This document shows, piece by piece, positions 7,843-8,268 of a stretch of DNA of 48,120 nucleotides; the stretch's first letter is position 1; each line of letters opens with the position of its first letter. A program made the position numbers and the translations under genes. The notes under the pieces are model-generated. The model ran no database searches and was not told the origin of the DNA. It saw nothing but the letters and a program-made list of their open reading frames with translations. Origin of the DNA: Ferroacidibacillus organovorans (GTDB lineage Bacteria; Bacillota; Bacilli; Alicyclobacillales; SLC66); NCBI RefSeq assembly GCF_001642725.1, contig NZ_LSUQ01000019.1:1-48120 (forward strand), written 5' to 3'.

Positions 7843-8175
7843 TTAAGCCTTTTCACCGTTTGCAATTGCAGTCGTTATGGACGCGTCCGTAATTTTATAG
7901 TGTGACGTATGCCATATCGCTTTTCCACGTTTAATTAAAATCACTTGGGGTGATGCGTGTCTCACACCGAGTTCATCCGCGAGAGCGAGCGAGAGCGAGC
8001 GTGACTCGATGACTTTAACCATTGCAATGGGGATACTCGCATGTTTCCCGTATTCGGTCACCTGACCGAACGCTGCCGCGCTAACGGGTCAGGTTGTACT
8101 GTGTTTAAAAAGAAGCATCAAATCTGAATTTTCCGCGATCGCAGTTAACGCATCACGCGTCTCAATTTCAATCAT
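7843..8175 (-). CDS. Predicted selenocysteine-containing monothiol bacilliredoxin (YtxJ/BrxC family)
   Basis: Read through one in-frame TGA (8089-8091, codon 29), the frame from ATG 8175 to TAA gives 110 residues, the usual YtxJ/BrxC length. The N-terminal part ends LLFKHSTT, then TGA, then PVSAAAF. BrxC proteins carry a single catalytic cysteine in a TCPIS motif at this point, so TGA replaces exactly that cysteine. The rest (VKVIESRSLSLALADELGV, SPQVILIKRGKAIWHTSHYKIT) is full-length family sequence and the protein has no other cysteine. GGAG lies 8 bases before the ATG. BrxC-type proteins remove bacillithiol from S-bacillithiolated cytosolic proteins. A hairpin fitting bacterial SECIS rules follows the TGA (separate entry). 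Alternatives are a nonsense mutation or sequencing error. Without recoding the gene would be broken, and a caller would report only 72 residues from GTG 8061. Confidence 0.8.
8053..8088 (-). promoter_or_regulatory. Candidate bacterial SECIS element in the bacilliredoxin mRNA
   Basis: Immediately 3' of the in-frame TGA, the minus strand forms a perfect 7-bp stem UUCGGUC (8070-8064) / GACCGAA (8059-8053), extendable by a G-U pair, with an AGGU loop. The loop starts 26 bases after the TGA, inside the spacing reported for bacterial SECIS elements, and holds a G in its first two positions as those elements require. A competing 8-bp stem pairs ACCUGACC (8094-8087), which contains the TGA, with GGUCAGGU (8067-8060). 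SelB binding is inferred, not shown. Confidence 0.6.
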
Positions 8176-8188
8176 CGATTTCACTCCA

Positions 8189-8217
8189 TAAAAAATCAGG
8201 GGAGCCTCGTGGCTCCC
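8189..8217 (-). terminator. Rho-independent terminator after the G5/3D protein gene
   Basis: On the minus strand GGGAGCC and GGCTCCC (8217-8211 and 8206-8200) pair around an ACGA loop and are followed by TGA and a run of six T. It ends only 14 bases before the bacilliredoxin ATG, leaving no room for a separate promoter between them. Confidence 0.85.
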
Positions 8218-8268
8218 TCCGTCTTGCGGCGCTGTCTGAATCTGCATGCACTGTCTCTTGATATCCCC

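Follow-up and report, generated by a model that had tools for sequence, protein, structure and literature searches.

A predicted selenocysteine form of the bacilliredoxin BrxC (YtxJ) in Ferroacidibacillus organovorans and related bacteria

A stretch of 48,120 nucleotides of Ferroacidibacillus organovorans DNA (positions 1 to 48,120 of contig NZ_LSUQ01000019.1, assembly GCF_001642725.1; hereafter, the window) carries on its minus strand a gene that very probably encodes a selenocysteine (Sec)-containing variant of the known BrxC/YtxJ family, made through the established Sec pathway of bacteria; there is no direct evidence that Sec is inserted. BrxC is a monothiol bacilliredoxin with its active Cys in a TCPIS motif. 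In the window gene, the codon at this position is TGA. An initial annotation of this DNA had predicted the gene product to be a selenoprotein, a reading that is now supported by the presence of Sec machinery, the recurrence of the TGA among relatives, intact reading frames and a fitting SECIS-type hairpin.

The gene, brxC (ytxJ), runs from an ATG at position 8175 to a TAA at 7845-7843 (minus strand) and is predicted to encode a monoselenol bacilliredoxin of 110 residues. The in-frame TGA is codon 29 (8091-8089, minus strand), giving the predicted Sec29 in the context FKHSTT-U-PVS, and is the sole interruption of an otherwise complete BrxC/YtxJ frame. The initial annotation gave no strand; several stops occur on the plus strand of 7843-8175. 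The protein scored above the cut-offs of both Pfam BrxC (PF11009; 103.3 bits, cut-off 24.2, E-value 7.1e-30) and NCBIfam YtxJ (TIGR04019; 99.9 bits, cut-off 77.25). A GGAG ribosome-binding site can be read from the sequence 8 nt 5' of the ATG (8187-8184, minus strand). The initial annotation had held that the TGA falls exactly on the catalytic Cys, that the ribosome site and the length fit, and that no other Cys is available to take over. All of this is confirmed: the frame contains no Cys codon, and the single redox residue, inferred to be Sec from its TGA codon, occupies the TCPIS position without a resolving Cys. A family definition that insists on Cys at this position would not cover it. 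It had also been stated that other genes of the window stop normally at TGA, and this codon indeed terminates 15 of 28 minus-strand ORFs picked from the window's ORF list (brxC being among the 28), which rules out a general reassignment of TGA.

An AlphaFold model of the window BrxC, for which Sec was written as Cys and six Sec-form sequences were included in the alignment, had a mean pLDDT of 94.5, with residue 29 directly preceding a helix at residues 30-43. The best match among solved structures was 3iv4 (TM 0.88, rmsd 1.2), which was also the sole PDB sequence match at an E-value of 0.001. The protein is predicted from this model to adopt a thioredoxin fold with Sec at the N-terminus of the active-site helix.

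When 61 genomes (that of the window and 60 relatives) were searched with the window protein, 32 were matched, and all 36 BrxC loci in them were read. The motif-Cys codon was TGA at nine of these loci and TGC or TGT at the other 27. Eight TGA loci belong to the family of the window genome (G000, the window genome itself, and G001, G003, G005, G007, G012, G021 and G024, with the proteins of G007 and G021 being the same) and one to the next family (G053). The latter is Alicyclobacillus mengziensis S30H14, an isolate with a complete chromosome (NZ_CP071182.1), while G003, G005, G007, G012, G021 and G024 are MAGs labelled Bacillota. A base error at the TGA codon is very unlikely, because the codon recurs in separate assemblies that include the complete genome of an isolate. 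Apparent TGA codons in G054 and G049 were discounted, as these frames run past their own stop and both loci have Cys codons. The second BrxC copy of G057 (L041) was rejected as a Sec form: its TGA lies at a conserved Trp codon, 7 codons past an intact motif Cys, and is likely a real nonsense mutation, providing a contrast case.

An order-level search of 59 genomes identified no further locus. A species-wide scan of 84,980 species, with a pattern of AGY as the first Ser codon and S/T-T before the TGA, returned 14 loci: seven of BrxC and seven in unrelated frames (five in Pseudomonas, one in Flavobacteriales and one in Eremiobacterota), which were set aside. Seven of the nine Sec-BrxC genomes were thereby found as public named records; the scan may omit records of the window genome or one very near it, consistent with the absence of G000 and G001. 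As a single pattern was used, the scan would overlook Sec forms whose codons or residues differ from it. A class-wide search with PF11009 matched 267 of 398 genomes and showed no stop among the best matches; the lower-scoring matches, among which Sec forms would be expected, lay outside this set, and the search therefore gives no information on frequency. Motif scans of viral contigs gave two loci and one locus, all three being unrelated frames.

A TGA within a coding sequence could also be a nonsense mutation in a decaying pseudogene or a sequencing error, and the second copy of G057, in a genome with no selA above the cut-off, is a real nonsense case nearby. This explanation is given next to no weight for the Sec loci, where TGA occupies the same codon in nine genomes, including the complete one. 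The frames downstream of the TGA are intact in all nine, with 79-84 codons to the stop; in the Cys forms, 76-87 codons follow the motif Cys, except in the broken G057 copy. Downstream dN/dS could be computed for five pairs (dS being saturated for three further pairs) and was 0.13 (G000/G001), 0.11 (G007/G024) and 0.24 (G012/G005) for Sec/Sec pairs, and 0.26 (the two copies of G003) and 0.07 (G053/G049) for Sec/Cys pairs. All nine loci also possess a SECIS-type hairpin (described below). A pseudogene was rejected on the grounds of TGA recurrence and selection. The view of the initial annotation that chance would hardly place a nonsense mutation at exactly the Cys codon is strengthened by the nine TGA codons among 36 loci; the alignment of homologues that it had proposed gave the codon counts above, and decay among relatives, which it had named as grounds for refutation, was not seen in these frames or dN/dS values.

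The window genome is a draft of 3.03 Mb in 98 contigs (96.8% complete), of which the window is contig 19. The search for selA, selB, selD and a tRNA-Sec, likewise proposed at the outset, identified all four above curated cut-offs: SelA (567.4 bits, cut-off 267.9), SelB (372.5 bits, cut-off 242.25), SelD (387.9 bits, cut-off 125) and tRNA-Sec (63.3 bits, gathering cut-off 47), the last being called by ARAGORN as tRNA-SeC with anticodon tca. The selD gene adjoins selA and has its own in-frame TGA, 3' of which is a hairpin with a GGC loop (GGUCC-GGC-GGACC; the stretch folds at -9.4). No stop was found inside the matches of the two formate dehydrogenase alpha genes above the cut-off (G000:C84:3444-5450 and G000:C3:21854-23860). 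This leaves SelD and BrxC as the two Sec genes seen in the genome, in the absence of a wider selenoprotein survey. Sec decoding is kept in this genome without a Sec-containing formate dehydrogenase among these two alpha genes.

Across the nine Sec-BrxC genomes, SelA and SelD were above their cut-offs in all nine and SelB in eight, and tRNA-Sec was above its cut-off in five of the six that were searched for it. The exception in both cases is G012, an 88% complete MAG, in which SelA and SelD are present, SelB is represented by a contig-end fragment (193.4 bits) and not by a full match, and the best tRNA-Sec match scored 44.1. SelA is above the cut-off in 24 of the 32 BrxC-bearing genomes and not in the other eight; Sec forms occur in nine of the former versus none of the latter (one-sided p 0.047, not corrected for kinship), a modest link. 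G025, one of the eight SelA-negative genomes, has SelB and SelD above their cut-offs and is only 60% complete.

A SECIS-type apical hairpin, GUUCGGUC-AGGU-GACCGAAU, was identified at 8052-8071 (minus strand), its loop at 8063-8060 lying 25 nt past the TGA; the initial annotation had made no mention of such an element. Criteria for the loop, stem and spacing of bacterial SECIS elements were coded from the legend of Fig. 2 of PMC13188914. Hairpins fitting these rules were found 3' of the TGA in all nine Sec loci, with an unbroken stem of -4.5 to -11.4 kcal/mol, and at -4 or lower in two of the 27 Cys loci. The eight Sec loci of the window's family share the loop CAGGWG (AGGU or AGGA closed by C-G), and the loop of the A. 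mengziensis hairpin is GGA. A stem of 4 bp or more capped by an AGGW loop occurs in eight of nine Sec loci versus one of 27 Cys loci; in this one (G046) the stem has 4 bp and the hairpin is not the best of the locus. When the hairpin was imposed as a constraint and the boundaries of the stretch were set to minimise the energy, MFE values of -8.9 to -21.4 resulted over the nine Sec loci; the published limit for bSECIS elements is -7.5 (PMC13188914). The free fold of the SECIS stretch contains the hairpin in eight of the nine, differing in G001.

Covariation was assessed with seven sequences of the window's family, six of them distinct (G007 and G053 were excluded). Over the 8-bp stem, 87.5% of cells were paired, with 13 two-sided changes and a covariation score of 0.742, and each of these three values was matched by none of 500 shuffles; sliding the stem partner left 0-2 two-sided changes. 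Two further measures did not rise above the shuffles, namely the number of pairs with a two-sided change (84/500) and further pair types (358/500). Among 2000 synonymous recodings, the energy of the hairpin was reached by 2 for the window, 3 for G005, 4 for G012, 24 for G003 and 77 for G001. The hairpin is not unusual by this comparison in G007, G021, G024 and G053, where 211-288 of 2000 recodings were as good. Folded without constraint, the 68 nt around the window TGA prefer another structure, in which the UGA itself is paired (z -1.44; 16 of 200 shuffles as good). These 68 nt include sequence 5' of the TGA, and it may be inferred that this part would be occupied by the ribosome pausing at the UGA.

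UGA is leaky in many bacteria. The codon could be read in some other way, through near-cognate read-through with Trp or Cys, or as a programmed stop giving a peptide of 28 residues. No evidence in favour of this was found, and it is considered very unlikely, as the corresponding codon is one for Cys, and not Trp, in all 27 other loci, the Sec machinery is present and the hairpin covaries. Decoding of the TGA as Sec remains the preferred reading.

In the window's family, the same 3D/G5-domain gene is located upstream of brxC at six loci of the Sec form (G000, G001, G005, G007, G021 and G024) and at five of the Cys form (G002, G004, G011, G023 and G025), and these are therefore a single orthologous locus. 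The brxC flanks of G012, G008 and the G003 pair lack this neighbour. On a protein tree of 35 BrxC sequences, from which the broken G057 copy was left out, the distribution of Sec requires five changes, at least three of which are forced by well-supported branches. Two recent Sec/Cys exchanges are seen: G053 (Sec) stands beside G049 (Cys), and the G003 MAG carries two copies of brxC (L024 and L040), one Sec and one Cys, with approximately 96% DNA identity. In the loop, the TGA copy of G003 reads CAG GTG versus CAT GTG in the TGC copy, the latter keeping the stem and losing the loop G. The Cys copy may represent a SECIS that has been lost or one that is emerging.

In nine genomes of the window's family, a conserved element comes after the 3D/G5-domain gene, on its 3' side, and immediately precedes brxC. 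It is made up of GACAGCGCCG, with YAAGAC next in most cases, then a GC-rich hairpin and, usually, a run of T residues (window 8190-8240, minus strand; further loci L011, L012, L013, L014, L019, L020, L021, L022 and L040). No Rfam match to it was obtained. A role as a regulator of brxC was set aside, as in G003 the element trails the 3D-domain gene at a distance of 1.57 kb from brxC. Its staying with the 3D gene at this distance suggests that it belongs to the 3D/G5-domain gene, either as a conserved terminator or as part of the 3' UTR.

With regard to bacillithiol, the window genome encodes BshC (370.6 bits, cut-off 265.8) and a BrxA/B family protein with a CGC motif (183.3 bits). Of bshA, bshB and bshC, only bshC was searched for, and the thiol itself has not been demonstrated. 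No YpdA/Bdr was found above the cut-off in this 96.8% complete genome (best match 59.9 bits, cut-off 339.9); this protein was treated as a partner, and not a defining part, of BrxC. From the parts present, SelB with Sec-tRNA-Sec (UCA anticodon) would recognise the mRNA hairpin 3' of the UGA, the UGA would be decoded as Sec and translation of brxC would continue to the TAA. The presence of BshC and a CGC-type BrxA/B allows a further route to be inferred, modelled on the Cys family and without demonstrated activity, in which the BrxC selenolate would attack the mixed disulfide that joins bacillithiol to an S-bacillithiolated protein and the resulting Sec-S-bacillithiol may then be released by a second bacillithiol. 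Higher nucleophilicity of the Sec form is inferred from what is known of Sec chemistry, and it is speculative whether Sec brings any advantage where these bacteria live.

Sec may alternatively be inserted into a protein whose main role is no longer de-bacillithiolation, for example a peroxidase or a carrier of selenium or a metal. The lack of a YpdA/Bdr above the cut-off would be compatible with this, as would a relative in Deinococcus, AbxC (NF053651), for which bacillithiol-dependent peroxidase activity is described in PMC8301015. AbxC has a BrxC-type domain (the window BrxC scores 44.1 bits, far below the NF053651 cut-off of 340) and differs in its Cys-bearing TCHKT motif and an extra C-terminal domain (PMC8301015). 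Such a change of role is considered unlikely, given that the remaining BrxC profile is intact, that Cys orthologues share the gene neighbourhood and that bshC and a CGC-type BrxA/B are present; none of these points comes with activity data. A rather doubtful conjecture may be added, namely that Sec gives BrxC either a peroxidase activity dependent on bacillithiol or a fast de-bacillithiolase activity that resists oxidation and has no need of YpdA/Bdr, making it the counterpart of selenium glutathione peroxidase among bacillithiol users, with the order toggling between states through repeated Cys/Sec exchange.

Sec-BrxC is not a new kind of system. It resembles BrxC/YtxJ (PF11009, TIGR04019; BrxC of Bacillus subtilis) in its whole-length match, TCPIS-type site, single redox residue, predicted thioredoxin fold and bshC-encoding host, and differs in having a Sec codon in place of that for the catalytic Cys and in the SECIS-type hairpin that its coding sequence contains. 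Sec-containing glutaredoxin is likewise a thioredoxin-fold oxidoreductase with Sec at the attacking position, from a family of glutathione chemistry. Its UxxC form, listed in Table 1 of PMC13188914, possesses a second Cys, whereas the window BrxC has none.

This 2026 review (PMC13188914) gives 119 prokaryotic selenoprotein families and subfamilies; BrxC is absent from its Table 1, and a search of its text gave no occurrence of PF11009, TIGR04019, DUF2847, YtxJ or bacillithiol. The accessible portions of PMC12013277 and PMC9312934 make no mention of bacilliredoxin, YtxJ or bacillithiol, and Sec is described as a toxic Cys analogue in that of PMC12822559. In the open-access literature, nothing was found pairing YtxJ with a selenoprotein, most subscription papers, supplements and database annotations being outside this scope. 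No title on Sec-BrxC occurred among the open-access matches listed for bacillithiol and selenoprotein, and those for Alicyclobacillus and selenocysteine or selenoprotein were, by title, unrelated work only.

Sec-BrxC is best read as a family new among the selenoproteins: a bacilliredoxin of the bacillithiol system with a single selenol. If true, it would add one more family to the prokaryotic selenoproteins, and the first that the authors have seen in the bacillithiol system. Where annotation takes every TGA for a stop, such genes would be split or labelled as pseudogenes. The question of why some enzymes use Sec and not Cys becomes testable here: the protein, which is small and combines a single redox residue with the lack of a resolving Cys, is found in an isolated species, and natural Sec and Cys orthologues and the near-identical Sec and Cys paralogues of one genome offer test material.
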